DNA of 58,747 nucleotides from a virus. Shown piece after piece: positions 16,519-58,747 of the stretch. The stretch is from positions 1 through 58,747 of the IMG/VR virus record IMGVR_UViG_3300048839_000819; one strand, 5' to 3'. Position 1 is the first letter of the stretch. Every line of letters begins with the position of its first letter. The notes below the pieces were generated by a model, which searched no databases, was not told where the DNA came from, and saw nothing but the letters and a program-made list of their open reading frames with translations. The translations under genes and the position numbers were made by a program.

Positions 16519-16528
16519 AATATTGTCT

Positions 16529-19342: not shown

Positions 19343-19344
19343 TT

Positions 19345-19944: not shown

Positions 19945-19957
19945 AATTTTAATCTTT

Positions 19958-20623
19958 CTATTTAGGGAATCCCAAGGCTTTTCGGTTGTTATATGTTTTA
20001 CAATCAGCATCATTGTCTCTAGAGTTTTTCTTGTACAGGTCATCCTCAGACCCAGGACCACCATGCCATTTATGCTGAATTATAACTTTAGGGTTGTAGT
20101 AATGCTTTTTCAAAGCTCTTACAACCTCTGTGAATTCATTGTCACAGTAAAAACTTTTGTAGTCTGGGTGATACATATACCCAAAATATTCGTACAGTTT
20201 TCTACCCATTATTGACAAGGTGATAGTGTTGTCTTTTCCAAACAGCCCATCGTTGTAGTGGAGAGCTCCGTCTGTATCAGGGAAATTAGCTTTCATATCA
20301 CTTACAATTACTTTGTCAAACTCTGGAACAATAGGTATCATATCGTCTGAAACCAGAACAATGATATCCCATTTAGTGTCTAGGCTTATATCTGCGTTAC
20401 ACGCAGCTATTTTACTAGGTGAGTTTCCAAAGAAGTAGGAAAGCTTAGGGAAAGTTTTTAGCTGGGCAATCATATCTCTATTGTTCATCGTTTTGTCATC
20501 GTGATCTAGTGTTATGACAAACTCAAAATCACAAGTGGGACTCAACATTTTATAGTAGGTTTTAAGGGTTTGAAGAAACCACTCTGGACGACTTCTGGTT
20601 GGGTACTTAAAAAGAATTTTCAC
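19958..20623 (-). CDS. glycosyltransferase family 2-like protein
   Basis: The 221-residue protein begins MKILFKYPTRSRPEWFLQTL, with DHDDKTM near 40-46 and VLVSDDMIP near 89-97 where D-D may be the metal motif, and later HGGPGSEDDLY. The layout fits GT-A fold family 2. It follows the next upstream gene (20627) by three bases. Confidence 0.65.
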   Translation of the reverse strand: MKILFKYPTRSRPEWFLQTLKTYYKMLSPTCDFEFVITLDHDDKTMNNRDMIAQLKTFPKLSYFFGNSPSKIAACNADISLDTKWDIIVLVSDDMIPIVPEFDKVIVSDMKANFPDTDGALHYNDGLFGKDNTITLSIMGRKLYEYFGYMYHPDYKSFYCDNEFTEVVRALKKHYYNPKVIIQHKWHGGPGSEDDLYKKNSRDNDADCKTYNNRKALGFPK

Positions 20624-20626
20624 AGG

Positions 20627-21178
20627 TTAGCTCGCATAATAATAGTATAGAACATTTTTTATTTTAACTTCGGTTTTAAGTAAAGGAAGTAGGGCTTCTG
20701 AATAAACACGGTCTTCACCAATTGTTATGTTTGGAAACCCTACAGAACAAGCAATATCTTTTTTTATAGCATTTAGATGGTTTGGAGATCTGTAATAAAC
20801 ATTGTTTTCAAGATACCAACTTTTGTAATCTATAGAATGTTTAAACAGCCTTTTTATTCTCCTGTACCCATTGCTGTGCTTCTCAGATAACTCTATCTCA
20901 CCAACTAAACTGCAACAGTCAGGTGAGTACTTTATAGCCTCTAAAACGTCTTTTACATAAGTAGGGCTAACAAGATCATCGTCATCTATGAAAGCTATGT
21001 AGTCCCCCTTAGCTCTTTCCAGAAGTATATTTCTTTTCTTACCAGTCGGTATTGTTTTGTTGTCGCAACAATACAAAACTTCAACCTCTGAGGTTAGTTG
21101 CGGGAGAAGAACTTTCTTGAGCCTATCCAGTGAGAGAGCTCTCTCTTGCAGTGTACACACAAGTAGAGATAATTTCAT
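20627..21178 (-). CDS. glycosyltransferase family 2
   Basis: The 183-residue protein has the GT2 start LSLLVCTLQERA, then RNILLERAKGDYIAFIDDDD at residues 49-68, where the DDD binds the nucleotide-sugar metal, and EDRVYSEALLP near the end (catalytic Asp/Glu-Asp region). It is shorter than typical GT2 enzymes, with a minimal catalytic domain. Confidence 0.8.
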   Translation of the reverse strand: MKLSLLVCTLQERALSLDRLKKVLLPQLTSEVEVLYCCDNKTIPTGKKRNILLERAKGDYIAFIDDDDLVSPTYVKDVLEAIKYSPDCCSLVGEIELSEKHSNGYRRIKRLFKHSIDYKSWYLENNVYYRSPNHLNAIKKDIACSVGFPNITIGEDRVYSEALLPLLKTEVKIKNVLYYYYAS

Positions 21179-21199
21179 GAGATATGATTCCTCACATCT

Positions 21200-22000
21200 T
21201 TAGGCTTCCTGAAGCTCTAAAGAATGGCTTCCCATAGCATTTTCTGTGTTTCTGACTAGTTTCATAAGCTCGCCCACTTGTGTTGCTTCAACACTAAATT
21301 TTTGTGTGTCGCCATAATCGTCACAATCATGTGTAACGGGGAATTCCAACATGCCTATGTTTTGAGACACAATTGCAGGAATGTATTTAATAGGCTTTGC
21401 TCCAAGGGAATACCCAATGAAAGCACCAGCGGATGAATATTTATATTTCAAGGTTTGAATTCTTCTGATGTTGATATTATTAGATGAGCAGGTGTTGCTT
21501 CCAGGAGAAGCCAAAATACCAGCAATGGTATCTGTAAAATAATAAACTACATTGTCAAGATCGTTTTCTGGTGTGGAGCCAGTATTAAGAACTACAGGGG
21601 TTCCTAAGTTTGCACAAGCCTTAATGTAGTCTAAATCACAAAAAAGATCTGATGGTATTCTTAGGTAAGGAACATGGTACTTTTCAACTAACATCTTTGC
21701 TGATTGAATATCCCACGGTGTGGATGTCCATTCAATGTTATAGTTTTGACAGGCTTCATTTATCTCGTCGTAGTCACACTCTTCCAGCTCAAGTGCTTCT
21801 ACTTCATCCCTGAGTGTTTCACCCCACATGCTTTTTTTAGATGAATCTAGGGCAGTTTTACTATAGAATGTATCTACGTTCTTTGTGTGAAACTTGATAA
21901 TATCAACTTTGTGCTTTGCCAAAATCTCGATCATGGCTAACACATTATCAATCTCCCCATTGTGATTGACTCCATAATCAGCTACTACTTTACAGTTCAT
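21200..22000 (-). CDS. NeuB-like N-acylneuraminate synthase
   Basis: The 266-residue protein starts MNCKVVADYGVNHNGEIDNV, with the N-H-N-G motif of NeuB/SpsE synthases, followed by DIIKFHTKN, where NeuB has the KFQ segment. Further on it has TPWDIQSAKML and LGTPVVLNTG. These enzymes join phosphoenolpyruvate to a sugar to form a nine-carbon nonulosonic acid. It is shorter than NeuB (about 350) and seems to lack the C-terminal SAF antifreeze domain. No other nonulosonic acid gene is seen, so its product is uncertain. Confidence 0.65.
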   Translation of the reverse strand: MNCKVVADYGVNHNGEIDNVLAMIEILAKHKVDIIKFHTKNVDTFYSKTALDSSKKSMWGETLRDEVEALELEECDYDEINEACQNYNIEWTSTPWDIQSAKMLVEKYHVPYLRIPSDLFCDLDYIKACANLGTPVVLNTGSTPENDLDNVVYYFTDTIAGILASPGSNTCSSNNINIRRIQTLKYKYSSAGAFIGYSLGAKPIKYIPAIVSQNIGMLEFPVTHDCDDYGDTQKFSVEATQVGELMKLVRNTENAMGSHSLELQEA

Positions 22001-22052
22001 GTTTTACTCCTTGTAAATATTTAATTAAAAACACTGAAACTTTAAAGTGAAT

Positions 22053-22080
22053 ATTCTAGACATTTTTTTATTAAAGTCAA
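22053..22080 (-). promoter_or_regulatory. internal promoter before the NeuB-like gene
   Basis: TTGACT (22080-22075), 16 bases, TAGAAT (22058-22053) on the minus strand, in the 102-base gap between the genes at 22103 and 22000. It would let the distal glycan genes be expressed apart from the tail genes. Confidence 0.5.
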
Positions 22081-22102
22081 GTATTTTTAATGATTTTTAA
22101 TC

Positions 22103-22882
22103 TCACCGATAGTTTGAAACCCTCAAAATATTGAATTTGTCCTTCTCCAGGTAATCTCTAGTAGCTAATGCCAAATCTATATCAGTTTTACCTATGGTAT
22201 TCATTGCCAGTAAGGTAGCTTTTGTGATATCCTCTTTGGTGTTCCAAGCCACTGTACAGGGCAAGTCAGGGTTATTGTGTACAGAATAAATACCTAATTG
22301 CCCTAACTCAAGTACAGTATTAGATAGACCATCATGCTTAGTTAGGCGATAGCCTAGGAAGCATCGTTTATAGACATCAAACATTTCCTGATGTTGTACA
22401 TCTTGTGAATTTGCAGTAATGAATTCTATATCTGGGAAATCCGATGATATTTCCTTTACCATCTTTTTATTATAGATTTCAGGACGCTGCATTATGCCAT
22501 AAGAATATACACATTTACCCTTGTTAATGACTGGGTAAATTATGCTGGTTGGGGTGAATTTCTGTCTAACATATTTAAGTTTTAGAATGTCTAGATCTTC
22601 AGCTATCCAATGTGATACAGCTACACTAATTATATTCTTCTTCCTAAGTCTTGGGACCATATAGGAATTAATTGTGTGCAGTAATGCAGCATCCATACCT
22701 CCCCAAATAACAACAGCAAGACCCTTATGAGACTCTATCATTCTCAAAGAGGTTTCAGAGTAACAACCAAAAAATATAGACGGTTTTGTTGTATTTTTAT
22801 AGTTGTTTAGTTGATATTTTTTTAGGACTCTGTCCTTAAAGTGTGTAAGGCATGGAGACACAAATATCTGATCAATTATCAT
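22103..22882 (-). CDS. GT-B (family 4-like) glycosyltransferase
   Basis: The 259-residue protein has a GT-B layout. Its C-terminal part has FLGYRLTKHDGLSNTVLELG, where K-x2-G-x-N-x3-E is the donor-site motif of family 4, then YSVHNN. The N-terminal part has PSIFFGCYSETSLRM. It is shorter than most GT4 enzymes (about 350) and probably adds one sugar of the phage glycan. Confidence 0.65.
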   Translation of the reverse strand: MIIDQIFVSPCLTHFKDRVLKKYQLNNYKNTTKPSIFFGCYSETSLRMIESHKGLAVVIWGGMDAALLHTINSYMVPRLRKKNIISVAVSHWIAEDLDILKLKYVRQKFTPTSIIYPVINKGKCVYSYGIMQRPEIYNKKMVKEISSDFPDIEFITANSQDVQHQEMFDVYKRCFLGYRLTKHDGLSNTVLELGQLGIYSVHNNPDLPCTVAWNTKEDITKATLLAMNTIGKTDIDLALATRDYLEKDKFNILRVSNYR

Positions 22883-25893: not shown

Positions 25894-27609
25894 TTAATAT
25901 CCAATTGAGGAAAAAACAGTACTGGACAATCTGCAAATTTGATTAGAGTCCAAAACAATATCCCCAGATTCATCTTGTTCATAGATGACATAAACGTCCG
26001 TTGGTGATATTCCTGAAACGTCAAAAACAAGTACACCCGTTGTATAATTTACAGTGCCTGAAACCGTAGCCACAGAATGTTGTGTAACAATATTTCCAGA
26101 ACCATCGTCAGCAGCAATTAAAACGTCCTCTGTGCCGCTTACAGTCCCGTAAATATAAACACTGGAGGTTTTCACCGAGGTACAGTTTAAAGCCGTTCCC
26201 CAGTCATACAGCGAGTTGTAGGAGGTGCTTGCTGATTGTCTTAATTTCATGGTCAAGGACAAGTATTTTACGCCAGCAAGAGAATCAATGGCTTGAATAA
26301 CATTGGATGCTCTTTTAGATTCTCCCAGAAGAGACGTTGTTCCAAGAGTGAATTGATCAGTCAAAACTCCGTTTATATCACTTTGAACTTGCGTCAGTGC
26401 ATACCCAGAATTAACTACAACAGATAAATAAACAATTACATAGATAATGTCTGGGTCAACATATTCATATTTTACTGTCAGCATTGAATAATCTCTCATA
26501 GAAGCAGATAATGTTGTTTTGAAAGATGCTGTGGGCAATTGCCAGTTTTGTAAAATAGTAGATATTTTAACTGTGTTAAACATGTCATAATTTGGGGGGC
26601 TTTCCTCTGCTTCTCCCCAAACATTGACATCAGCCACGCTACTGTAGTTTTGTATAAAAGACACATAGTCTTTCTTTCTAGAAAGACTGCCCCCTGTGGC
26701 AAAAACATTAGGCGCTTCTGCTGCTATCTCTTCTGCTGTTTCAGCATCATCGCCACCTGTCATTGTGGTTGAATTTGTAACAGCAATAGTGGAAACTTCC
26801 ACCAAAGATTCATTGTATATTGTGGATCTTACAGTAGTTACTTTTCCTGTTTCGTAGATATTTCCTGAAAGTCCACTTGTGCTGATATATTTAACGGTTA
26901 TTGTTGAGCTTGTTCCAGGAATAGCTCCATTTGTATTATCCCCAAACACGACTGTGATTGTGTCGTCTAAATTGCTTTTAATAGTAAAGTGAGAGTCTGT
27001 AGAACTAGAGCTTAGAAAGGATGAAACATATGTCCATTCCACGTCATCTACATACACCCTAAAAGTGCGAAATGGTAGCAAGGTTGTGTGGTCATCGTTG
27101 TCAACAGACGTGTCTGAAATATCAAACTCTTGATCTGCTGTACCATCAGATGTAAAAGTAAGCTCTGTAAGCTGCCCTTGAATAGCTGTTACATTATTGC
27201 TTGTTTGAGTTGTCTCAATGGTGATATCATAAATGGTTGTGAATATAATACCATCAGCGGTTTGACACTCAGTATATTGAGGTATAATTACTCTTGTAGA
27301 TGGAGCAGAAGGTACAGAAAAAACCAAAGTGCCAGTAGACCCTACGGGTCTTTTTGGCCTATAGTTTAAAAGTTTAACCAGATTAACAACACTGGATTTA
27401 TTACTTGCCAATCCTATGTAATTCTCGGTAGCTTGTCGCTCCAGATAGTACATAAGCATATTGCCAATACCAGCAACAAACTGTGTTAGAGTTGTTCCTG
27501 TTGCAGACTGGTAAGTGTCCTTCCAGGCGTTTGTAGCTTTCAATTTTGTTTCAAATTGAGAAACTATATCCGAGTATTCATAATTTGCATAATTTAGCTC
27601 TGTGGGCAT
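25894..27609 (-). CDS. baseplate J/gp6-like wedge protein
   Basis: The 571-residue protein begins MPTELNYANYEYSDIVSQF and contains EIAAEAPNVFATGGSLSRKKDYVSF-type J-family signature with a repeated RAVTRxDY-like core (RKKDYVSFIQNYSSV). VVVNSGYALTQVQSDINGVLTDQF is typical of the J C-terminal half. It forms the inner baseplate wedge in contractile phages (T4 gp6, P2 gpJ). It overlaps the gp25-like gene's end by position and follows it directly. Confidence 0.85.
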   Translation of the reverse strand: MPTELNYANYEYSDIVSQFETKLKATNAWKDTYQSATGTTLTQFVAGIGNMLMYYLERQATENYIGLASNKSSVVNLVKLLNYRPKRPVGSTGTLVFSVPSAPSTRVIIPQYTECQTADGIIFTTIYDITIETTQTSNNVTAIQGQLTELTFTSDGTADQEFDISDTSVDNDDHTTLLPFRTFRVYVDDVEWTYVSSFLSSSSTDSHFTIKSNLDDTITVVFGDNTNGAIPGTSSTITVKYISTSGLSGNIYETGKVTTVRSTIYNESLVEVSTIAVTNSTTMTGGDDAETAEEIAAEAPNVFATGGSLSRKKDYVSFIQNYSSVADVNVWGEAEESPPNYDMFNTVKISTILQNWQLPTASFKTTLSASMRDYSMLTVKYEYVDPDIIYVIVYLSVVVNSGYALTQVQSDINGVLTDQFTLGTTSLLGESKRASNVIQAIDSLAGVKYLSLTMKLRQSASTSYNSLYDWGTALNCTSVKTSSVYIYGTVSGTEDVLIAADDGSGNIVTQHSVATVSGTVNYTTGVLVFDVSGISPTDVYVIYEQDESGDIVLDSNQICRLSSTVFSSIGY

Positions 27610-34620: not shown

Positions 34621-35190
34621 TTAAGAAATTAGTGAAGATCCAGCGGCCAAAGCAGCTTGAGCCACACCCAAAATAGACAAACCAGTATCAAGTGTCCAGA
34701 AATCAAAAGAAAGAGTTGCACTTATGATAATATGTGTATCTGAATCCTGCTGAAGAGGAACTTCTTGAATGTTTTCAAGATAGCAACCCCAAATCTTGTA
34801 AGTTTCAGCAACTGCACCATCTTTGTTGATCATCTGTAGATCAACATTTCTTTTGATAAGGGCATCTCCAACACCTACACCTGATAAGGTGTTCTGAATC
34901 AATTGAGACCATGCATACAACTCAGCATGGGACCCTCTGTCCTCAGACTCATTGAAAGTCACAGGAAGGGTGTGTGTGTAAACTTCTTTTCCTGGATAAG
35001 ACACACCACCAGTGCCCCTAAAGGGCACAACAATCTTTCCAAAACCCCTAGATGGTTTTGAAGTTGACCTGCATCTGATGGTCCAAACGGCCCTATCTCC
35101 ACCAGGAGAACTAGGCACTTTCATTTCCCAAAGCCATCCACGAGCTGGATTTAAATTTGCTCTTAGAGCAACTGAACTTAACGTAGGCAT
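34621..35190 (-). CDS. tail tube protein, gp19-like
   Basis: The 189-residue protein begins MPTLSSVALRANLNPARGW and has VPFRGTGGVSYPGKEVYTHTLPVTF and DLQMINKDGAVAETYKIWGCYLENIQEVP, the T4 gp19-like tube pattern. It follows the sheath gene, as in all contractile phages. Length: T4 gp19 is 163. Confidence 0.85.
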   Translation of the reverse strand: MPTLSSVALRANLNPARGWLWEMKVPSSPGGDRAVWTIRCRSTSKPSRGFGKIVVPFRGTGGVSYPGKEVYTHTLPVTFNESEDRGSHAELYAWSQLIQNTLSGVGVGDALIKRNVDLQMINKDGAVAETYKIWGCYLENIQEVPLQQDSDTHIIISATLSFDFWTLDTGLSILGVAQAALAAGSSLIS

Positions 35191-35236: not shown

Positions 35237-37042
35237 TTAAAATTGATATCCTCTAGAAACAAGCTCATCAAAAGAAGCACCAGTAGAAGTAACTACAACG
35301 TTAAGTCTAACGTAATAGATGGCTCTAACAGGCTTGACAAACACAGTGATTGCCAATTCATTAGCATCAATAACAGCGGGTGTATTGTTAGATGTATCAC
35401 AGATAACTCTGTATCCAGAATCTCCAGATTCTGTTTGAAAAGCTCCTCTAGCAGCAAGATTGTTCAAATATGAATCTGTTACAGAGGCAACCTCAAATCT
35501 AGTATCTGAGGTATTGTTATACCCAATGATATAATCTTGATATGCCTCACAGAGGTCGTACTCAAGCATATTTAGGAGACGCCTGACATTGATGCCAGAA
35601 AGAGCAGAGCTCTTCTTCTGCATGGTTCTCTGACCAAACAAAGCAATGCCTCTACCCGGAGATACTTTGATACAGTTGACTTGAGCAGCGTCCAGCAAGC
35701 CAATTTCAGTATCATTATATCTTTGAGAAAGACCAATTACATTAGTGAGCTGTCCATTTGTCCATCCACCAACACCATCCCAAACTTCACCATTAAATGT
35801 GACTCTGGCGTATGCAGCAGCAATAGAACCAATCGGAGGTATAGTTACAACCTGATCATTGATACTGTCATTGATCTTTACATAAGGTGAGAACAATGCA
35901 AAATCATCTGTATTGAAATTCTGTGTTGAATTTCTAAAGGTAAGTGCGCTTGCAGCAGCCTTTTCAGAATCAGGAACAGCACCAAAAGCAATGGTATCTT
36001 TCCTATTTTCAGCAACAGCCTTCATTGCTGTCTGAATTGTTACAATATCAGATGCAGAATGTGAAGATAGATAAGATCCACCAATAAGGATATTTACTGT
36101 AACATCGGATTCATTGTAGAATGTGTACCATCCAGAATAATCCGTAGAGCTTCCAGCATAATTGCTGGCTGTAGGATCACTACCATTTACACCGCCTCCA
36201 AGCAGAACAGCCGTTGAGTTCTCTTTTGGCAGAGTTGTTTCAGCAACAGCAGTTTCATCTGAAACACGAATATACATACTGTAATCATTTATCTTGGTTT
36301 CAAGGTACAATTGTTTGCCAAAACCATCAATTTTCTTGACACGAGAAACGTTCCATGACTCAACAAGAGTTGTTACATTGTTGATATCAGTCTCATAAAC
36401 CTCAATATCAAATGTAAAAGCCTCTGTTTCATCAGAAACATACGTAACCCCAGAGCTTTCCCATGCAGGAATACCCGTGGTGGGATCAGTGGTCAATACC
36501 CAGTGAGTCGGGGCAGCTCCAGGAGTGTAGGTCACACTGGCAGTGTGATTTAGTAGGCATCTATAAACAGAGCCACTATACACAACTTTATGAGCGCCAA
36601 GAACATTGACAATCTTTACTGATAGGCTATTTCCCCAGGCTCCTTGATTATCTGCAAAGATGTCAAAGACTTGAGAATCCACAGAGGATCTAGCTGCATA
36701 CGTGGCAGCAGCAGTTCCAGTTGTGAATGCTGTGATAGTATCAGATGAATCCTTAGATACCGCTGAAATACCAGCAAAAAGAGCCCCATTAATTATTCTC
36801 TTAAAGTAAAGCTGTCTTCCTTGAGACAGAAACTCAAGAGCCATATAATGGGCATAATTACCCACTTCTGGGTTGCCATAGATAGCCACAAAATCTTGTG
36901 AATTTGTTACAAGAGTTCTATCTGTTCTGCCCTTCTTTGTGAAACCAACACACCCACCAATAACTGAAGGATTATTTTCAATAAATTGTGAGGTGTCAGT
37001 TTCTTTTAAATAAACATTTGGACCTTTTGACTTGTCGCCCAT
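35237..37042 (-). CDS. tail sheath protein, gp18-like
   Basis: The start is ATG 37042 (AAGGAGTTTTAAT upstream), giving 601 residues. The N-terminal GPNVYLKETDTSQFIENNP and the C-terminal FVKPVRAIYYVRLNVVVTSTGASFDE are sheath signatures. T4 gp18 has 659 residues. It lies directly upstream of the tube gene. The middle part has an insertion with a beta-rich domain (DNVTTLVES). Confidence 0.9.
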   Translation of the reverse strand: MGDKSKGPNVYLKETDTSQFIENNPSVIGGCVGFTKKGRTDRTLVTNSQDFVAIYGNPEVGNYAHYMALEFLSQGRQLYFKRIINGALFAGISAVSKDSSDTITAFTTGTAAATYAARSSVDSQVFDIFADNQGAWGNSLSVKIVNVLGAHKVVYSGSVYRCLLNHTASVTYTPGAAPTHWVLTTDPTTGIPAWESSGVTYVSDETEAFTFDIEVYETDINNVTTLVESWNVSRVKKIDGFGKQLYLETKINDYSMYIRVSDETAVAETTLPKENSTAVLLGGGVNGSDPTASNYAGSSTDYSGWYTFYNESDVTVNILIGGSYLSSHSASDIVTIQTAMKAVAENRKDTIAFGAVPDSEKAAASALTFRNSTQNFNTDDFALFSPYVKINDSINDQVVTIPPIGSIAAAYARVTFNGEVWDGVGGWTNGQLTNVIGLSQRYNDTEIGLLDAAQVNCIKVSPGRGIALFGQRTMQKKSSALSGINVRRLLNMLEYDLCEAYQDYIIGYNNTSDTRFEVASVTDSYLNNLAARGAFQTESGDSGYRVICDTSNNTPAVIDANELAITVFVKPVRAIYYVRLNVVVTSTGASFDELVSRGYQF

Positions 37043-37053
37043 ATTAAAACTCC

Positions 37054-37773
37054 TTACGTTGTGCAAACGCTACAATTCTCACCAGACCAAAGTAGTAGTG
37101 CTTCTCGTCTTTGTGAATCTATTTCTTGTTCTCCAATTACCATGTCAATCATATTTTGGTCTGTTAGAGCAGACCCATCATACAATTTCATGATAATACT
37201 TCTGATAGCCTTCTGCGTAAGGCTCTTTAATATATAACCTTGTACCTCTACCCCTATTTTTTGGGTATAATACTGGCCTTTTTCGTATTTAATACCAGTT
37301 GTTGATTCGTCTACTATATCTTTTAATGATACATTAAATTCTATAGGAAAATTTGTGTTATAAGTTAAATCCAATGAAGGATTTTCTTGGTTCCAGAAAA
37401 GAAGCTTGTCTGTGACTAATTCATGTGTATATAGACTTAATGTCCAAAACCAAACATCGTAATTTATGATTGCTGGAACAGCAGTTACTAAGGTGGATTC
37501 ATCGTCGTCATCAACCTGTATTTCAATACCAGTTCTGGCTAAGCCTGTCTGATTCATACGCCAGTTATATGAAACTTTTGTTTTCCATAGATTTATAAAC
37601 TCAAGAAAATTCTGTCCTCTTTTTTCAGCGGTATGCCTCTGAGCAGACTCTTTAGGCATGATGCTGACATGATTTTCCATATTAGGTAAGTCCAGAATCT
37701 GTCTGAACTTAGAGAATAAATTACATCTAAGTGCAAAAGAAACTAAAGATATTGTGCTTATACTAGTATTCAT
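37054..37773 (-). CDS. tail terminator/neck-like protein (gp15-like position)
   Basis: The 239-residue protein has NYDVWFWTLSLYTHELVTDKLL near 104-125 and a pattern of beta strands with PIEFNVSLKDIVDEST, as seen in sheath-terminator-like proteins. It lies between structural genes and the sheath, where gp15 or a tail-completion protein is expected. The family cannot be fixed. Confidence 0.5.
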   Translation of the reverse strand: MNTSISTISLVSFALRCNLFSKFRQILDLPNMENHVSIMPKESAQRHTAEKRGQNFLEFINLWKTKVSYNWRMNQTGLARTGIEIQVDDDDESTLVTAVPAIINYDVWFWTLSLYTHELVTDKLLFWNQENPSLDLTYNTNFPIEFNVSLKDIVDESTTGIKYEKGQYYTQKIGVEVQGYILKSLTQKAIRSIIMKLYDGSALTDQNMIDMVIGEQEIDSQRREALLLWSGENCSVCTT

Positions 37774-41084: not shown

Positions 41085-43217
41085 TTAAACAGAGGGCTCT
41101 TCTACAACTACCATGAACAATTCAGGATCTTCTGAATCAGTTGTAACTTTAGAATTGGGTGTGGATGCAGCAATTCTATCAGCCTCTTCTTTAGTGGCGA
41201 TAGAGCTTGCTTTAACTGTGTAAGATACTTCTTTTTGCTCTTCTATAAACAAGGTATCATCTTGTTCCATAGAAGACTGTCCATTGAGTTTAAAATCCTC
41301 TCCTTCCGCAGGACTAAAAACAAAATCTCTCGACTCAAATTGCTCATCAGCAAATCTGTCGTCGCCTATATAGTTAGCCCCTTCTCCTGGTTTAACATAG
41401 GCAACTGTTATATGAGGAATATAATCAGGATGATCATTTCCAGGAGCACCTACTCCGTCAACAAGCTCTTTATTGAGGGCATTAACAGCATCACTAACAA
41501 CAGGAATGTATATAACATCGTAATCGTCTCCTTCAAAAACACTTACTTCACCTAAAGTACCAGATATATCATTATACTTATCTACAATAGATGAAAGTTC
41601 ATCTACATTTGTATTTTCTAAACCATAGAGAATAGTAAGATGTGTCTGCATTTCTCTGCCAAATTTGGCAGCATCCTCTTCTGTTCCCTCACCTACATAC
41701 AGTATATCATCAGGGATGTCCTCAGCAAAAGAACGAACTCTAGCAGCAATGTTTTCAGGGATATTCAACATCAAGCAATCATACTCATAGAGGTCATCAG
41801 GCTTTTCTTCAGATTCCTCCTGATTGTCATCAGTAAGAGTTTCCAAAGGCTTCTCTTCTACAGCTTCTACTACTGATGGTGTTGCTTTGTATGTATCGGA
41901 AGTCTCCACAGTGTCCTTAGAAGAGTCATCTAAAGAACCGTACTCCCTAGCATGCCCATTGACATAGTAATCAGGATCTTCTTTGAGGTTATCCATAGCA
42001 ATTTCTCTTGCAATCTCAGGATCATCTGTATGCTCCATTTCTACTCGTGTACCAGTTTCCAATTGCTCTGGATCATAATCTTCTGGAGATGTACCATCCG
42101 CTATACCTCCAACCAACTTCTCTTCATACTGACCTTTATCAAGAGACTCATCCCCCATTGATAAATTCTCTTCTGAATCATCCTCATCTATTGATTCTTC
42201 AACAGGCTCTTCCTCTACACTCCCAATTTCCCCTTGCTCATAAACTTCCTGAGAAATATTCTGTGTGTTTCCGTGATCATTTATATGCCAAACAGAAGGG
42301 AAGAAGTTGTCTTTGGCTGTTTTTTGTCTAACAGCAGCAAGACCTTGCTCATAGTCACTAAATTTGCCTATCATATCCCCTTCAATATAATAGACCTTTA
42401 CGGTACTTCCCATACCAGTATCTGCTATTACAATATCTTCCGGTGAAGGTTCAGCAAACATATCCTCTTCACCACCATCAAGAAGATCATCCTCATAGTA
42501 TTCTTCGTATTCATCCTGCTCATAATTATCAAACATTGTATGCGCCGAATGAACCTCATAGAGGAGCTTGGACGGAACAGCTATATAAGGAATTTTACCC
42601 GATGATCTTGTCACCACAAAAGGCAATGAAGACTCTGAAATGGCCTTTGCAAGGCCCTTGTCATAAACAGGAAGATACTCGTATTCTTTGAGCTTATCTT
42701 CTGAAATCTTCATGGCTTTATATTTTTTGGCAAGACTCTCAACAAACTGTTTATGTTTTGTTTCAGAAACAAGTCTAACAGAATTCAATGAAAATTGCCT
42801 TTGCTTATCGTCTATGACAACACAGCACATTGGGCCAAGAATGCTTTCTACAATAGCACACTTGCCAAAGGCATCGCTTTCTTTATTAATCACCATTACC
42901 GTATCATAAATAGAAATGGACTCTACTCTGACTGTATCACCACTGACATCATCAGCAATGATGCTTTTATCTTCCATTTCTTTTTCATACTTGATTCTTT
43001 CATTATCCGTATCAGATGAGTCTTCCTTAATGTGGGTATTGACTCTACGAGTCAGAGCCCCACAGTTTTCACAAAGATTCTCATAATCAGCACCGTTAGA
43101 CTCTGCAAGAGTCTTTTGTGTATGTGTACAACGAACACACACTCTCATATTAGTAGATTCCTTTACTTCGGGATCTTCAAGGGTCATAAGCTTAGACAAA
43201 AGTTTTTGCATATTCAT
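41085..43217 (-). CDS. 710-residue virion-operon protein with 2H phosphoesterase domain
   Basis: I choose ATG 43217 (AGGAGCAATTTT upstream). The protein has an N-terminal zinc ribbon (CVRC, then CENC), a small SH3-like part (TVMVINKESDAFGKCAIVES), a long acidic middle, and a C-terminal 2H phosphoesterase. The two H-x-T motifs are HLTILYG near 526 and HITVAYV near 602, 76 residues apart. 2H enzymes open cyclic phosphodiesters; in T4 one (Acb1) degrades the cyclic nucleotides used in CBASS immunity. Here it lies in a structural operon and may be carried in the virion. The natural substrate is unknown. Confidence 0.65.
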   Translation of the reverse strand: MNMQKLLSKLMTLEDPEVKESTNMRVCVRCTHTQKTLAESNGADYENLCENCGALTRRVNTHIKEDSSDTDNERIKYEKEMEDKSIIADDVSGDTVRVESISIYDTVMVINKESDAFGKCAIVESILGPMCCVVIDDKQRQFSLNSVRLVSETKHKQFVESLAKKYKAMKISEDKLKEYEYLPVYDKGLAKAISESSLPFVVTRSSGKIPYIAVPSKLLYEVHSAHTMFDNYEQDEYEEYYEDDLLDGGEEDMFAEPSPEDIVIADTGMGSTVKVYYIEGDMIGKFSDYEQGLAAVRQKTAKDNFFPSVWHINDHGNTQNISQEVYEQGEIGSVEEEPVEESIDEDDSEENLSMGDESLDKGQYEEKLVGGIADGTSPEDYDPEQLETGTRVEMEHTDDPEIAREIAMDNLKEDPDYYVNGHAREYGSLDDSSKDTVETSDTYKATPSVVEAVEEKPLETLTDDNQEESEEKPDDLYEYDCLMLNIPENIAARVRSFAEDIPDDILYVGEGTEEDAAKFGREMQTHLTILYGLENTNVDELSSIVDKYNDISGTLGEVSVFEGDDYDVIYIPVVSDAVNALNKELVDGVGAPGNDHPDYIPHITVAYVKPGEGANYIGDDRFADEQFESRDFVFSPAEGEDFKLNGQSSMEQDDTLFIEEQKEVSYTVKASSIATKEEADRIAASTPNSKVTTDSEDPELFMVVVEEPSV

Positions 43218-43231
43218 AAAATTGCTCCTAT

Positions 43232-44128
43232 TTATTTTGCTTTTAAAGATCCACCACAAAATATAAAAATTTGAGGCTGATTTAGATCTTCACTGTAACA
43301 AACTGCTTGTGTGTATTGTGAAAATCCTGAATGTTTTAATGTTGTGCTTACTCCAAGTAAGAAAGTAGAGCCATTTATATCCGTTGATTCCTTGAAACTC
43401 TGAGGAAATTTTACCAGTGCTACGATATTTTTGATGTTTATATCGTTTGATATTTTACTTATTGATAGAACTACTGCTTTTTCAATTAAATCTTGAGGAG
43501 AAAATTCCTCAAATTGTATAACATCACTCTTGACTATTGGGCTTTTATATAGCTTATCCACAGCACCATACTTTGGAGAAGTACTAAAGTTAGCTTGATT
43601 TGAAAGACTCAAGTAGTTTTTATATGTAGTAATTGTTTTATAAACGCTTAATTGTACGTCTTCTGTATTTTGTTTTTCAGCAAATACCGTATTGACTATA
43701 CCAGAGTGCGCCAAAGTGGCGATATGGAACAAATCTTTCTTATTGGTATAGATACAAAGCACAGATATGTTGCTCTTTGAGCAAATATTTATGTTTGACA
43801 AAGCATTGTGTTTGTCATTAAAGACAATGCCTGAAATAATTGACTTTAAATACTTATTAGAAGCATCTGAACAAATTAGAATCTGTGACTTATTTGTGGT
43901 GAGATCAGAGATCTCTGTATACAAATCCTGTATGTTGTTTATATGAATCCCAGATGTTTCTTGAGGATCATCATGAACATAGAATGATGGAAACACCTCA
44001 TCACCAAAAGAGAGTATCTTATGGTAAAGAGATCCTATCTCACCTAAACATACAAATATATAATTAGGGAGACATCCCTTCGGTATGCTTAGAAATGAGG
44101 AAACACTTATGTCAGGAGCAATTTGCAT
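43232..44128 (-). CDS. hypothetical structural protein
   Basis: The 298-residue protein starts MQIAPDISVSSFLSIPKGC and is low in charge, with many Ser/Ile. No family is recognised. It is coupled to the gene at 44128 (TAATG) and belongs to the neck/head operon. Confidence 0.45.
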   Translation of the reverse strand: MQIAPDISVSSFLSIPKGCLPNYIFVCLGEIGSLYHKILSFGDEVFPSFYVHDDPQETSGIHINNIQDLYTEISDLTTNKSQILICSDASNKYLKSIISGIVFNDKHNALSNINICSKSNISVLCIYTNKKDLFHIATLAHSGIVNTVFAEKQNTEDVQLSVYKTITTYKNYLSLSNQANFSTSPKYGAVDKLYKSPIVKSDVIQFEEFSPQDLIEKAVVLSISKISNDINIKNIVALVKFPQSFKESTDINGSTFLLGVSTTLKHSGFSQYTQAVCYSEDLNQPQIFIFCGGSLKAK

Positions 44129-47785: not shown

Positions 47786-49980
47786 TTAGGCACCAAGGTT
47801 GGTGATTTTACCATAAGTGAACATACGACTGTTCAAGACCTTAAAGCCAGCAGCACTCATGAAACCCTTCTGGCTGAACAAGTCAGAAGTCGTCACTGTA
47901 GGCGAGGTGAACAGAGGCATATACGGAGCATAGGCAAACGCAGCATGCAAGAAATCCTTGCCGCGATAACCCATGATGTATCGGTTAGTGCCAGATACGC
48001 TGGACCCACCAATAGTGCGATCCTGAAGCAGAGGATCTTGGATCACAGTACGACCACCAATATCGCCAATGACCATAGGTCCAAGAGGCAGATCAGTAGT
48101 CTTTGCCTTAAAGGTAGGCAACTGCTTAATAACACGAGCCACGTTATTACCGCAGATGATCCAACTACCCTGTGCTCTCAAGGTAGCCGCGAAGATGTTG
48201 TTTGAGCCTTCCTCAAACCTATCAAGAATTTCCTGTTTCTTGAACACCCATTCCTGACCACTACCAACGGAAGCATTCCATGCGGTAATGGCGGTTGCAG
48301 GAGTGTACGAAGTACCTTCCCAAGACCCGCCATGAGACGCGATGTCAATCTGGTTGATGCCGAAGTGATCAATTGTAAACTGACTAGCTGTTACTTGTAG
48401 ACCTATTAAAAGCACGATCACTAAAATGCAATTAATTAATTTTTTAATAGGCGGGTAAGTCATCTCTGCTTACCTCCAAACATTTCTGCTTGGTTCAGAC
48501 TATATCTTAACCCTGAATTTTCCAGGGTTGCCGCCGTAGCCTCTAAGATTACTCTTAAAGACGTAGTCGTTGAACTAGTATTGAACAAAGTATCCTCAGC
48601 CATTGCTGTTTCAACCATATTGTTCATTTTATTTTTCATATCAATCTTTCAATACTAGCTGCTGATTGTCCCGAAGGAGGTTCCAGCAATTAAGCGGCTT
48701 TCGCGATGCCGATATTACTATCGACGCGAGGCCCACATTTAACCTCGCCACCCAGATACTTCACCAATTCGCTCTCCAGGTCCATACCATGAGCCTTGGA
48801 AAGGTCAATGGCAGCACCAATTGACCAGCTTGCAGCCAGAGGGAAATCAATGGCTGTAACAGGCGATTGTGTCAAAGACACGCTTGCCTTGGGTACACCA
48901 CTCTGATCGTTGTAAGCATCAATGGGCTTATCATACTGATAGCGATAATTCACTGCAACACCAGAACTGTCAGTGGTAGTTGCAAGCGTGAAAGAAATCG
49001 CACCAGTGGTGTAATCCACAGTACCAGTACCACCGTCACCAGTTATAACAGTGGCTGTATCAGCGTCAGTACCAAGAACAGTACCGTCAGCAGCCTCAAG
49101 CACAACAGTACCAGAGGTAATGCCGGGCTTATAGGTGCAGGTGTGGGTAATGGTTTGACCAATGGACTTGGAAGACGAAGAGGCAATAGCCTCACCAATA
49201 ACACCAGAGTAAGCATACGTCTGACCAGCAAGGGTACGATTTGTACCAGTAGTAGACGACAGCATGGTGTCACCAGCGGTGACTGCACCCTTGGTATTAT
49301 CGTACTTCACATCCAGATAGAACACAGAACCAGTCCTTCGGTCCAAACTTTGAATAAGAGCAACCTCATTCAGCACTAATGCACAAAAGTCCCTATTTTT
49401 CAAAAGGGGGTGGATCATATCATCCTCACAATGGAGGTTCGGCGCTTTTGAGATATTATTGGTAGCAAAATCCTCAATCTCTGATCTCTGAACTTTCTCT
49501 TTTACATAACTACTTGCATTCAAAGAGCTTAGCTGCTGATTAGCATATTCTTCTTTCGAAGAACTTAGCGTTCCAGAAAGTAATTGTCTTTCATATTTAA
49601 TTGTTCTGTTGGTTTTTGACATTACTTTTTTCAATTCACCGAATTTTTCAAAATAGATTACTCTATTAAGCCGCCATTTGATCTAACGGAAGCAGTGCTG
49701 CGATAATCGGAAGCTGCACACCCAGGAAAGAAATATTGTCTTCCGTGGTGCTCTCAAACAGACGCCCAAGCGCCTTCGGCGCTACACCGGTTTGCATAAG
49801 GGCATTATCAAGACACTGTGCTGTCGCACGAGCTTCATGAATACCAAGCTCACGGCCTTGAGTCTTCTTGAGGTAATCATTTACAGGATTCAACCAAGAA
49901 CCCCAACGTTTTACAACGTTATTCTGTTCGGCGATGATCTCCTTACGGCGACCTTCTACCATCTTTTTCATATCAATCAT
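47786..49980 (-). CDS. major capsid protein (gp23-like), split by two group I introns
   Basis: The gene is complement(join(47786..48383, 48742..49381, 49686..49980)), giving 511 codons and 510 residues (T4 gp23 has 521). The exons read continuously. Exon 1 ends VQLPIIAALLP; exon 2 supplies SLVLNEVALIQSLDRRTGS and ends VKYLGGEV, continuing QFTIDHFGINQ in exon 3. Exon 3 ends with RGKDFLHAAFAYAPYMPLF, typical of gp23 C-termini. The ATG 49980 has AGGAGATCTATA upstream. It forms the hexamers of the head shell. The exons are GC-richer than their surroundings. Without splicing each frame stops soon after the exon, so splicing is needed for the full protein. Confidence 0.9.
48384..48741 (-). ncRNA. 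group I intron 2 in the capsid gene
   Basis: The 358-base element fits group I introns of the T4 td type. P1 pairs the exon end GCGAGGUU with GGCCUCGC, keeping the U-G wobble at the splice site. P3 pairs GCCGC with GCGGC. GGAACCUCC-UUCG-GGACAAUC lies in the P4/P5 region. P7 pairs GACUA (in GTTCAACGACTA, 48561-48575) with UAGUC (in AAGATATAGTC, 48498-48508). P8 (CCCTG/CAGGG) precedes it. The 3' end, AG before TCAGTT, fits reading phase and a short P10. A P9 hairpin GGTAAG/CTTACC is also present. There is no homing endonuclease. Confidence 0.85.
48460..48639 (-). other. 59-codon open frame across the core of intron 2
   Basis: From ATG 48639 (GAAAGATTGAT upstream) to TGA 48460-48462 a frame of 59 codons runs through P7, P8 and P9. 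It begins MKNKMNNMVETAMAED and ends EMFGGKQR. It is probably accidental, since the RNA structure constrains it, but it may be a remnant of an intron protein. I do not call it a gene. Confidence 0.2.
49382..49685 (-). ncRNA. group I intron 1 in the capsid gene
   Basis: The 304-base element shows the same core. P1 pairs CCGU with GCGG, with the U-G wobble at the splice site. P7 pairs GAUCA (in GTTCAGAGATCAGAG, about 49480-49493) with UGAUC (49413-49417, in GATGATATGATCC). P8 (CCTC-CATTGT-GAGG) lies just upstream of the latter. P10 pairs the start of exon 2 (CAUU) with AAUG next to P1. The 12-base segment AATCAGCAGCTA is shared with intron 2. Intron 1 is open in frame with exon 2, so an unspliced RNA would encode a 310-residue product from ATG 49622. 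Confidence 0.85.
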
Positions 49981-50066
49981 TATAGATCTCCTGAATACAT
50001 TTCAATTTAAAAAATACGTTCTCTCTCGTGGTGTGTGAATGAAGTGCATTCAGCTTACCAGATGTT

Positions 50067-50103: not shown

Positions 50104-52602
50104 TTATCTACTCAGATGTTTTGTGATCTCTTTGTTGATTATAAGAGACTCCTCATCAGAAGTAGATTCAATCAATAATTCATCATAACTCGGTTTCATC
50201 AAAAGGTCAAGCATAAATTTATGACTATTTCCCTCCAGAATACAATCAATATCATCTTTTGTCTTTGCTTTCTTAGCAAGTTCACAAATAGACTCAGAAA
50301 GAGTTATACCCATGAAGGACGATTTGATGTCCAAGTAATTCTTTAAACTTTCTTCTCTAACCAATTTCTCTACAGACTTTTTAGTAGTCTCTATAATCTT
50401 GGTGGCTTTTGTTTTCAACTTTTTAAGCTTAGTTTCATACAGACTGGTGGTCTCAGTAAGTTTAGCGTTCAATTCACGAATTACTGAATTTCTGGAAAGA
50501 ATCGTCTTGTTCTGAGATTCGTTTGTTTTTGTAGTACTGTCAATCCTCTCATTGAGCTGATTGATAGTAGTTTGCATCTCATTGATCATTTCAGACAGTA
50601 CAGAAATTTCATCACTCTTAATAGCTTCATCTGCCCGTTGGGCATACGTAAGCTTTGAGACATCAAGGGATTCTTTCTTTTGCTTTTTGACTTCTTCAGC
50701 TGATGTGCCAGCTTCCATACTCTTTTGCACAGCTATAGCGTCATCTTTATTATTTGTTTTATATGTTGCTGTTTCATCCTTTACACCATCAATATAAACA
50801 TCTACAACAAACTCACCGGTGTCTTTATTTTTATGAATTTTAGTTTTTTTACCACTAGAGGCTTTACCTTCAGAGAGATCATCCTTATCCTTCTTACTGG
50901 TCTCTTCGAGACCACTGGCAAGCCTTTCGAAATAATCTAAGAGACCATAGTATGACTCTTTGATGACTCCCTTGATTTTAGGAGCTACAGCTTTTTGTAC
51001 TTTTGACTCACCAATGACGGACATGTACTCTTTTTGACAGGAGCAAGAAGAGAAGCTTTCACCACAACTAGGACATGCCTCCATGAGGCACCCCAGAGTG
51101 TGGAGATTACCTTCTTTCATTTCCACCTTACATCCAATACAAGTTACATTTGGCTTGACAACCATCTGTCTCTCATATATCTTGTCCTTGATTTTTACGT
51201 ATTTGGATTCTTTATTGTATCCTGATTTAATAGGCTTTTTCTTCTTAGACTCTTTCTTTTCCTCATCCTCTTCAACATCCTCAAGAGTTTCTAGGTCTTG
51301 AATTTCTTCAGACTTTTCATTGAAGTCCTTCTCTTCCTCTATCTCTTCTTCCATTTCTACTGGAACTTCACCTTGTGAAACATCAGTAACTACTGGTATG
51401 CTACTCGTAGTTGTAGTTGTAAGCCTGATGACAGGTGAAACGGCATCAGATTTAAAAATCTCAATAGTATCAGATGTGCTGTTAGTACTATATTGAGTAT
51501 CAGGAAGAATCTGAGCCATTTGCTCATTTTCTTTCAGAGCCTTCAAAAGAGAATCACCAGAAAGGCCCTCTTTCAAAGTAATTTCAAATTCTTTATCAAA
51601 GGATTCATCCAATGATTTAACTGTGTATGTTTTTGATTCTGTTTTCATAGAAACTTCTCCATCAACTTCAACGTCAGGAATGTAGTCTTTCAACTCCCAC
51701 ATACTGTCCATAGCATCAGGAATGGAGCCAGAACCAGAGGTAAGCATGGCATGCACAGTTTCCATACGATATGGGGATTTAATGGTTGCTGACCAATTAT
51801 CTTTGTCAATATCTATCTGAAGGCCCTTGAACTTTTGACCATCAAGAAAATCTATGACACTAGGGTCAGAAGCCTCCAGCGTATATGAATTAATACGATC
51901 TTCATTTATTTTAGGCCTCTTTACAGATTCAAGCAAAACCTTTGCTTCATCTGATTTTAATACAGCAAGAATAGACTCAGCAAGCTCTTTGCTTATCTTT
52001 CTTGCGTCATCTTCTGTGGTGCATCCATCAGAGATGGCCTCTACAACATTTCTTTCCAACTTTGTGGGAATAGAACCAAAGGTAGAGGGATCGGCTGTAA
52101 AGTCTGTGGTAATGTATTTGTACTTATCAGGAACGACTCTATCGTAAGTAGCTGACCCTTCTGTAATTGTCTCTACATCACCAGAAGCTCTTGTACTTAC
52201 ACCAACCATACAATTAGCCTCAATGAGAGTGTGAATAAGTCTACCATGAGGTGTATCAAGTACCTCAATCTCCTGAAAGACCTTCTCAACAACCTTACCG
52301 TCTTCCTCAACAGCTTCAAAGAATGTATCTGTGATGATATGACTTGTTTGCATCAAGTCAGACTTCACCCCTTCGGGGTGCTCACCATGACCATACAAGT
52401 TTCTATTTTTATGCTTTGCTTTTATTTCAGGATCATCCATTACCTTTTCAAACACAGCACGCTCATAGATGCGTCCGTTTGCGTTTAGCTCATCTACATT
52501 GCAAATAGGCCAAACGCCTCTAAACAGGACACCCTTGGGTAATTTTGACCTATCTGATTCTGTAATCTTACAGTTTACCAAAAGTGTTTCATTTAAAATC
52601 AT
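50104..52602 (-). CDS. prohead protease fused to scaffold (gp21/gp22-like)
   Basis: The 832-residue protein starts MILNETLLVN with GAGGAATTCACA upstream. Its first ~230 residues are a gp21-type prohead protease. NANGRIYERAVFEKV precedes LYGHGEHPEGVK, where H75 fits the catalytic His, and MVGVSTRASG, where S136 fits the catalytic Ser. The middle is acidic and has a Cys-rich segment (CIGC, then CPSCGESFSSCSC). Residues about 675-755 are a coiled coil, as in scaffold cores. In T4, gp21 and gp22 are separate genes; here they are one protein, a rarer arrangement, in which the protease would come with its scaffold substrate. Confidence 0.75.
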   Translation of the reverse strand: MILNETLLVNCKITESDRSKLPKGVLFRGVWPICNVDELNANGRIYERAVFEKVMDDPEIKAKHKNRNLYGHGEHPEGVKSDLMQTSHIITDTFFEAVEEDGKVVEKVFQEIEVLDTPHGRLIHTLIEANCMVGVSTRASGDVETITEGSATYDRVVPDKYKYITTDFTADPSTFGSIPTKLERNVVEAISDGCTTEDDARKISKELAESILAVLKSDEAKVLLESVKRPKINEDRINSYTLEASDPSVIDFLDGQKFKGLQIDIDKDNWSATIKSPYRMETVHAMLTSGSGSIPDAMDSMWELKDYIPDVEVDGEVSMKTESKTYTVKSLDESFDKEFEITLKEGLSGDSLLKALKENEQMAQILPDTQYSTNSTSDTIEIFKSDAVSPVIRLTTTTTSSIPVVTDVSQGEVPVEMEEEIEEEKDFNEKSEEIQDLETLEDVEEDEEKKESKKKKPIKSGYNKESKYVKIKDKIYERQMVVKPNVTCIGCKVEMKEGNLHTLGCLMEACPSCGESFSSCSCQKEYMSVIGESKVQKAVAPKIKGVIKESYYGLLDYFERLASGLEETSKKDKDDLSEGKASSGKKTKIHKNKDTGEFVVDVYIDGVKDETATYKTNNKDDAIAVQKSMEAGTSAEEVKKQKKESLDVSKLTYAQRADEAIKSDEISVLSEMINEMQTTINQLNERIDSTTKTNESQNKTILSRNSVIRELNAKLTETTSLYETKLKKLKTKATKIIETTKKSVEKLVREESLKNYLDIKSSFMGITLSESICELAKKAKTKDDIDCILEGNSHKFMLDLLMKPSYDELLIESTSDEESLIINKEITKHLSR

Positions 52603-56912: not shown

Positions 56913-58747
56913 TTATGCAGCATCAAAAATTCCCATAGAAACAAGAGCATTCACCACATCGGTAAATGCTGCCCAATTATTATACGACGCTTTAGCCTGT
57001 TGTTTGAGCTTAATTATTGCCCCACCCTCTTCTCTATGATGCAGACAGGCATTGCCTGCGGAATAATCAGCAGACCACATTTGAACCCCATCTGTGATTG
57101 ATGTGCTGGGGGCTGTGCCGTTTCCTAGGGCGAGGACTTTAGCTGCGGAGGTGCCGAAGGTAGAGGCATTGAATCCTATATTACCAGTCTCCAAACCTGC
57201 TGTTATAAAATTATAAGATATACCTAGTACGTCTGTAAGACCTGAAATTTGAAAAAGGCCATTGTCACTGAATAGGGATACATGCTTGACATTAGATCCA
57301 GCAGAGGTGTCCACTAAATCAAGAACACCTATGCCATTACCTTGAGAAACAATTCTAGATCCTGTAGTGGTAGAAGCAAGTTGCAAAGTTCTTTGAGCAA
57401 CACTGCTACCATTAATCACAGTAGGTGTTAAAGTACCTAAACCTACAGAGTCACTAAACACATGGCTAGTCCCATCTTCAGACCTGATATGAAGCCCTGC
57501 CTTGCCTGCGGTGCCACCGCGATCGGCAGAATATAAAACAACTCCATCTGTGATAGATCCTGTTGGTGATGTGCCCGTAGTTATAGAAAAAGAATTAGTA
57601 GCAGACGTAGGCTCAGTAACTCCTCCTCCTAAAAGTAGATTTCCTAGGTAAGTCAATACCATATTAGTTACTAATGTTTGGTCTACCCCATTAGGGGCTG
57701 TTTGCCATAAGAATCCTTGATGAGCACTAGCTACTTGGTCATAAAAACCAAAAATGCCTCCTTTTCTTTCAGCATTAGTCATTGTTGTTGGCACATAACT
57801 ATCAGCGGCTGTCATCGTTCCATTAAAAACTATTGCTCCACCGACTTGATCTTGAAATTGATGAAGACTTATAGCTCCATCCCCATTTTGAGTATTCTCA
57901 AAACGAGCAATAGGAATTGTATAATCCGCAGTTGCATATGTGGAATGAAACACACAAGAAGGAGTAGTCGTCCCAATCCCAACTCTATCACTAAACACAT
58001 GACTAGTCCCATCTTCAGACCTGATATGAAGCCCTGCCTTGCCTGCGGTGCCACCGCGATCGGCAGACCACATCTGAACTCCATCTGTAATTGAGGTGCT
58101 GGGGGCTGTACCATTAGGCATAGCTAAAACTTTGGCAGCGGAGGTTCCCACTGTTGCGGTAGATATCATCAAATTTGCACTACTGTCTATTTTGAGTACT
58201 TGGGTATCTGAAGATCCCATTTTAAATATAAATGACCCATTAGTCCAACTAGCAGCATCTCTGTAGTATTCCAAAGATCCCGCAACATCTAACACACCAG
58301 AATTGCTTTGATACCATTGTAACTGTCCAAAAGTTCCAGCACCCCCCAAGTCTCTACTAATCCGTATATCTGCTTCTGTGGAGCTATTTGACACTTCTAA
58401 CAGGGACGAAGCCCTTATTATACCAACAACATCCACGTTGGTTGCAGGAGTAGTAGTCCCTATCCCAACCCTGTCACTAAACACATGACTAGTCCCATCT
58501 TCAGACCTGATATGCAGCCCTGCCTTGCCTGCGGTGCCACCGCGATCGGCAGACCACATCTGAGTGGTATTTGCTGGGCTTGTGGATGGTGCTGTGCCGT
58601 TGCCTAGGGCGAGGACTTTGGCTGCGGAGGTGCCGAAGGTAGAGGCATTGAATCCTATATTACCAGTCTCCAAACCTGCTGTTATAAAATTATAAGATAT
58701 ACCTAGTACGTCTGTAAGACCTGAAATTTGAAAAAGGCCATTGTCAC
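56913..58747 (-). CDS. repeat-rich tail fibre protein (partial; runs off the right edge)
   Basis: The frame has no start in the window and continues past 58747, so 611 or more codons are seen. It consists of repeated blocks with the pattern SADRGGTAGKAGLHIRSEDG then SDRVGIGTTTP, separated by variable domains. The C-terminus, HREEGGAIIKLKQQAKAS and NNWAAFTDVVNALVSMGIFDA, is a common phage fibre end. The repeats are conserved at DNA level (see repeat entries). It is the likely host-range adhesin, or a long fibre shaft. Confidence 0.7.
   Translation of the reverse strand, partial: DNGLFQISGLTDVLGISYNFITAGLETGNIGFNASTFGTSAAKVLALGNGTAPSTSPANTTQMWSADRGGTAGKAGLHIRSEDGTSHVFSDRVGIGTTTPATNVDVVGIIRASSLLEVSNSSTEADIRISRDLGGAGTFGQLQWYQSNSGVLDVAGSLEYYRDAASWTNGSFIFKMGSSDTQVLKIDSSANLMISTATVGTSAAKVLAMPNGTAPSTSITDGVQMWSADRGGTAGKAGLHIRSEDGTSHVFSDRVGIGTTTPSCVFHSTYATADYTIPIARFENTQNGDGAISLHQFQDQVGGAIVFNGTMTAADSYVPTTMTNAERKGGIFGFYDQVASAHQGFLWQTAPNGVDQTLVTNMVLTYLGNLLLGGGVTEPTSATNSFSITTGTSPTGSITDGVVLYSADRGGTAGKAGLHIRSEDGTSHVFSDSVGLGTLTPTVINGSSVAQRTLQLASTTTGSRIVSQGNGIGVLDLVDTSAGSNVKHVSLFSDNGLFQISGLTDVLGISYNFITAGLETGNIGFNASTFGTSAAKVLALGNGTAPSTSITDGVQMWSADYSAGNACLHHREEGGAIIKLKQQAKASYNNWAAFTDVVNALVSMGIFDAA
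57113..57268 (-). repeat. 156-bp duplicate block in the fibre gene (copy 1)
   Basis: Positions 57113-57268 are nearly identical to 58592-58747, with only a few differences; the second copy is cut by the window edge, so the true repeat is longer. It encodes the segment ending FNASTFGTSAAKVLALGNG. Confidence 0.8.
57451..57530 (-). repeat. 80-bp repeat in the fibre gene (three copies)
   Basis: Copies at 57451-57530, 57988-58067 and 58474-58553 differ by only a few bases. They encode the GLHIRSEDGTSHVFSD block. The near-identity suggests recent duplication or gene conversion. Confidence 0.8.

Follow-up and report, generated by a model that had tools for sequence, protein, structure and literature searches.

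The capsid locus and its surroundings

The DNA analysed here, termed the window, is a linear IMG/VR virus record of 58,747 bases that probably represents an incomplete genome. On its minus strand, at 49980-47786, lies what is very probably the gp23-like major capsid gene of an uncultured, T4-like phage, interrupted by two group I introns and consisting of three exons of 295, 640 and 598 nt. T4-type virion genes surround it, and the prohead protease, the expected upstream neighbour of gp23, is directly upstream. The features are as follows:

50104..52602, minus strand: prohead protease, T4 gp21-like (Pfam Peptidase_S77, E 1.5e-9; PHROG head maturation protease, E 7.5e-23)
49686..49980, minus strand: exon 1, residues 1-98 and the first base of Ser99 (joined translation; aligns with the intron-free capsid ORFs L013-L015)
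49382..49685, minus strand: predicted group I intron 1, 304 nt, 34.5% GC, without a nuclease gene (RF00028, pairing, terminal G, P10)
48742..49381, minus strand: exon 2 (Pfam Gp23, 42.7 bits; joined translation)
48384..48741, minus strand: predicted group I intron 2, 358 nt, 39.4% GC, without a nuclease gene (RF00028, fold, pairing)
47786..48383, minus strand: exon 3 (Pfam Gp23, 54.8 bits; joined translation)
35237-37066, minus strand: tail sheath, T4-type virion gene
34621-35190: tail tube, T4-type virion gene
25894-27609: baseplate, T4-type virion gene

The tail sheath protein also matches a CBM_5_12 carbohydrate-binding module at residues 160-189. A virion-region protein at 41085-43259 (minus strand) has a 2'-5' RNA ligase-like domain and gives an anti-CBASS Acb1 match just below the cut-off (25.3 bits vs 27). 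Sugar genes at 14966-22882 (minus strand), perhaps for glycan decoration, comprise ORFs that are glycosyltransferase-like by eye, a GDP-mannose dehydratase/epimerase-like gene and a NeuB-family gene. At 56913-58745 (minus strand), a long protein of repeated units (SADRGGTAGKAGLHIRSEDGTSHVFSD and so on) runs off the contig end and is probably a tail fibre.

Exons and joints

Joined in phase, the three exons translate into 510 amino acids followed by a stop codon, and all three are free of frameshifts and stops. Exons 2 and 3 each match Pfam Gp23 (PF07068) separately, with the scores listed above against a cut-off of 24.4 bits. A profile of an alignment that included the spliced protein matched T4 gp23 chains with an E of about 1e-42, a value that depends on the relatives in the alignment. 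Exon GC content is 48%, higher than that of either intron. The initial annotation had described two breaks in the frame and an in-phase, gp23-like product of 510 residues; this was borne out, with exon sizes, coordinates and phase all correct and with the Pfam matches supporting the family assignment.

Single-protein scans of viral contigs using the capsid, a neck-region gene and the sheath found no close relatives. Relatives were found with a five-sequence alignment (A2); a nine-sequence alignment was too diverse. L013, L014 and L015 have intron-free capsid ORFs of 503, 508 and 514 amino acids, respectively, which are 45-55% identical to the capsid over the matched part and span both intron sites without a break or gap. 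Across the intron 1 site they read LLPSLALNE (L013), LPTLVMND (L014) and LPSLVLNQ (L015), and across the intron 2 site YLGGEVKFTID (L013), YLGGECKFTID (L014) and YVGGMAKFAID (L015).

The joints were also located by base pairing between the exons and a guide in each intron:

49671..49678, minus strand: intron 1 guide (base pairing)
48726..48735, minus strand: intron 2 guide (base pairing)

In intron 1, GCGG (49674-49671) pairs with CCGU of exon 1 as P1 and AAUG (49678-49675) with CAUU of exon 2 as P10. The corresponding pairings of intron 2 are GCCUCGC (48732-48726) with GCGAGGU of exon 2 and UGG (48735-48733) with UCA of exon 3. Because P1 places a U.G pair at the splice site and P10 adjoins it at both introns, both splice sites are fixed without reference to the protein. 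The joints are defined twice, by predicted RNA pairing and by the uninterrupted relatives.

Group I identity of both introns

Judged from their sequence, both gaps are group I introns. The search against RF00028 (gathering score 50 bits) that had been suggested as a check places intron 2 above the cut-off, with 73.1 bits and an E of 1.1e-16 over the whole window. Intron 1 has an E of 2.5e-9 (6.3e-11 in a second run), and its score of 41.8 bits is below the cut-off. There are no further matches elsewhere in the 58,747-bp record. The fold of intron 2 is far better than that of shuffled sequence (z-score -6.0); the free fold of intron 1 is ordinary and no better than shuffled sequence (z -1.0).

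When the helices were paired by hand, standard pairs were found throughout P1, P2, P3, P6, P7, P8 and P9 of both introns. P2, P3, P6 and P8 differ in sequence between introns 1 and 2, yet are fully paired in each. The last intron base is G in both cases, at 49382 and 48384. In intron 2, P4 (UUGCUG/CAGCAG) is contiguous with 6/6 positions paired, and P7.x, P9.1 and P9.2 extensions are present. These paired core helices, together with the RF00028 matches, uphold the earlier claim that both gaps carry group I core elements. P7 of intron 1 is formed by:

49482..49486, minus strand: 5' strand of intron 1 P7, GAUCA, which pairs with UGAUC at 49417-49413

Compared with the usual phage GACUA/UAGUC, this helix carries two compensated changes.

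Both introns are of the IA type, the subgroup being judged by eye. They share with the IA introns of RF00028 (T4 td, nrdB and nrdD, SPO1 and Twort) the same core helices, the P1/P10 guide, the terminal G and an early in-frame stop, and the extra helix that phage IA introns have between P7 and P3 is also present in the capsid-gene introns. Intron 1 differs from all of these in having a hairpin within the 5' strand of P4. The exon 1 frame stops at TAA 49668-49666, just behind P1 of intron 1, and the exon 2 frame at TAA 48692-48690, before P4 of intron 2. In coding genes, stops soon after the start of a group I intron are believed to protect the folding core from ribosomes (PMC3984707), and the early in-frame stops of both introns fit this pattern.

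The 12-mer AATCAGCAGCTA, to which the initial annotation had drawn attention as common to the two elements, is indeed present in both, at 49530-49541 and 48656-48667. It is the conserved P4 3' strand region. Since the pattern AATCAGCAGCYAA with loose flanking elements matches at least 119 viral stretches, the 12-mer is no sign of close kinship between the introns, and it was rejected as a mark of common origin. Comparison of the intron DNA with 50,697 phage records yielded short core matches only and no full-length relative. A MAFFT alignment of five introns (A3) was unreliable in the periphery, and the alignment was left out of the pair counts. In Campylobacter phage CP21 (L037), a 28-nt match to the intron 1 core at 2501-2528 lies between pieces of a multi-part annotated tail sheath gene and probably marks a further group I intron, so far unannotated, within a virion gene.

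The split P4 helix of intron 1

The first reading of the intron 1 core overlooked that its P4 helix is interrupted by the following element:

49577..49631, minus strand: 55-nt hairpin (AAAGUAAUGUC / GACAAUUACUUU) in intron 1 (pairing, free fold)

The P4 5' strand of intron 1 reads AAUUG, then the hairpin, then CUGGAAC; in the other introns compared it is AAUUGCUGGAA or near to it. The hairpin pairs at 8/8 and 3/3 positions and is also seen in the predicted free fold, and both P4 halves can still pair with CAGCAG despite the 55-nt split. A scan for AATTG..CTGGAA..AATCAGCAGCYAA matched at least 119 viral stretches. P4 is contiguous in 120 of the 123 matches listed, and the remaining three are copies of one sequence that has its CTGGAA in another element. 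A stricter scan for a split P4 returned 11 stretches, of which eight are introns whose P4 is contiguous and three lack intron features. Among the listed matches and the stricter scan, no split P4 was found in the other viral introns inspected. The hairpin is absent from the related introns L140, L081, L088 and L156, and the P4-P5 region of L140 (AATTGCTGGAACGCTAAGTTCGAAAGAATATGCCAATCAGCAGCC) equals that of intron 1 except that the insert is missing. We rejected the hairpin as a mobile repeat, no second copy being found in the window or the viral contigs. By its sequence, intron 1 appears to be an ordinary phage intron that received an insertion in its core at a late stage.

The activity of intron 1 appears less sure than that of intron 2, because it scores below the Rfam cut-off, folds like shuffled sequence and has a split P4. 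The same three observations could mean that intron 1 is dead or dying, its core broken by the hairpin, with intron 2 alone active and the contig derived from a defective phage or a minority variant that makes no full capsid protein. We consider this unlikely, given that both P4 halves are retained and able to pair with CAGCAG, that the insert is a clean hairpin able to stand aside, that P1, P10, P3 and P7 are unbroken, the changes in P7 being compensated, and that the three exons have acquired neither a frameshift nor a stop. The intact exons, guide and P7 suggest that intron 1 still splices.

Introns in other capsid genes

Two introns in a capsid gene had been regarded as unusual. This view holds only in part, given published multi-intron major capsid genes and two gp23-like genes collected here (L030 and L019). 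A crAss-like phage major capsid gene in five pieces with group I introns has been published (PMC7886860). Among crAss-like capsid genes, which likewise can be split by several group I introns each, that of cr116_1 (MT774389, L032) has two RF00028 matches; these genes differ in their crAss-like capsid, in their other insertion sites and in that the introns were found mostly via nuclease domains. RT-PCR and the size of the virion protein demonstrated splicing of the capsid intron of mycobacteriophage LittleE (PMC3706429). That intron resembles those of the window in lying in a major capsid gene, with U before the intron and G at its end, but it is a single intron with a nuclease ORF within, in a capsid of another family. 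The same study describes a nuclease-free tail-gene intron in BAKA and cites a capsid-gene intron of lactococcal phage Tuc2009 (PMC3706429).

Most of the gp23-like relatives collected have an uninterrupted capsid ORF, and group I introns were found at other sites in gp23 genes, numbering one, two or three per gene. Bacillus phage SP-15 (KT624200, L003) has a gp23-like capsid gene with 27% identity, which is annotated as a joined CDS and contains a group I intron (RF00028, 38 bits); unlike that of the window, this gene has a single intron, which is placed at LIS04 residue ~256 and encloses a Phage_endo_I-type ORF. The IMG/VR contig L030 has two interruptions, each with an ORF that is GIY-YIG-like by eye, and matches RF00028 in part, at 23-25 bits. 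The 4.5-kb IMG/VR contig L019 has three RF00028 matches (57.2, 57.0 and 49.9 bits), the first intron having a nuclease-like ORF and the other two no ORF. A very short exon (SVSVQPMDNRVG, about 36 nt) lies between its first two introns (L019:1-3252). L029 has one interruption near the capsid C-terminus.

All insertion sites of L030 and L019 differ from those of the window, the nearest being L030 intron 1, 7 nt downstream of the window intron 2 site. Placed on Listeria phage LIS04 numbering by inspection of the alignment, the sites lie at about 83 (window intron 1), 89 and 100 (L019), 256 (SP-15), 262 (L019), 279 (window intron 2), 281 (L030) and 408-414 (L030, L029), and they occupy three conserved stretches. 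Capsid introns and multi-intron capsid genes are already known, and the present gene is a good new example.

Two contigs, L017 and L022, were left out of the firm introns, having an RF00028 match in one scan that is not listed by cmscan. Each has an intact gp23-like gene, behind which come a nuclease-like ORF and a repeat of the last ~40 capsid residues (L017:1482-4357, L022:1620-4442), an arrangement suggestive of partial 3' exon duplication around a group I intron. In Streptococcus phage vB_SagM-GXN1 (L005:3422-3836), a group I match of 34.7 bits directly follows the capsid stop codon.

Splicing, origin and role

Judged from the sequence, the late transcript most likely self-splices in the ordinary way. 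Each intron would fold and bind guanosine in P7, the RNA would be cut after the U of P1, at 49686 and 48742, and the exons would be joined at the P10-held site after the terminal G (49382 and 48384), yielding one mRNA for the 510 residues. The early in-frame stops would end translation of unspliced RNA and so keep ribosomes out of the core.

The introns most likely entered the gene separately, since no two well-resolved insertion sites coincide, and as selfish elements whose homing nucleases were lost or never present. As had been stated earlier, both are without a recognisable nuclease gene: searched for a homing endonuclease, the ORFs of either intron match no family. The HNH gene at 1854-2318, which had been offered as a former intron partner, is a generic HNH protein (PHROG, E 1.3e-10) located 45 kb from the introns; no link was found, and it was rejected as a lost homing partner. 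Splicing would make the introns nearly harmless, allowing them to persist with, we infer, no benefit to the host.

It has also been proposed that the introns are held for the timing of late expression, in which case splicing would delay or meter capsid synthesis in late infection. Beyond the general need to remove an intron before protein is made, no supporting evidence for such regulation was found. The intron-free relatives at 45-55% identity manage without it, and other gp23 introns lie at scattered, different sites, often with nucleases, as for selfish elements, which makes this explanation very improbable.

Open frames within the introns

In the exon 2 frame, intron 1 runs for 100 codons without a stop, and only one of 2000 dinucleotide shuffles was as open. 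Within it lies:

49383..49622, minus strand: 80-codon stop-free stretch from ATG, in frame with exon 2 (shuffles, weak coding signal)

The translation of this frame includes the peptide MSKTNRTIKYER. Its coding signal is weak, at 0.094 per codon (references: 5th percentile of true genes, 0.067; 95th percentile of wrong frames, 0.037), and its codon use is intermediate between those of true genes and wrong frames. No role was found for it. An open frame leading into exon 2 is not required of a plain intron, and this counts against a simple intron 1; as one result among many examined, the open frame may be due to chance.

An 18-nt near-repeat (94%) occurs at 48632-48649, at an ORF start within intron 2, and at 49964-49981, at the start of the capsid gene, and ORF59 (48639-48460) resembled gp23 N-termini by eye. 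In Smith-Waterman comparisons with the capsid N-terminus, shuffled sequences did as well in 33/300 cases for ORF59 and 11/300 for the intron 1 ORF. Of four profile comparisons testing the likeness, one gave 7/500 and the others 146-215/500. The likeness was treated as chance, and the intron ORFs were rejected as copies of the capsid N-terminus.

That no splicing takes place and the capsid is built from separately translated pieces, such as the intron 1 ORF with exon 2 and the intron 2 ORF with exon 3, is scarcely credible: ORFs from ATG 49622 to TAA 48690 and from ATG 48463 both exist, and the 100 open codons with their weak coding signal would suit it, but the group I signals are complete with P1 and P10 matched to the exons, the relatives are single uninterrupted proteins, and the intron ORFs have no family match and are not significantly like the capsid N-terminus. 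With self-splicing as the preferred reading, we consider it possible, at somewhat less than even confidence, that intron 1 is a working ribozyme whose P4 bears a side hairpin at a position that is bare in the other phage introns inspected, and which is in addition stop-free in the exon 2 frame.

Conclusions

The split P4 of intron 1 offers a simple test case for the tolerance of the core in a natural group I ribozyme. The gp23 gene is the standard environmental marker for T4-like phages, and introns in it disrupt gene calling and can conceal these phages in surveys; the capsid gene of the window is not recoverable by ORF annotation or the Rfam cut-off alone. Group I introns have hit gp23 repeatedly. 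Their sites differ and lie in a few conserved stretches, a pattern consistent with selfish elements that have well-conserved DNA as their target.
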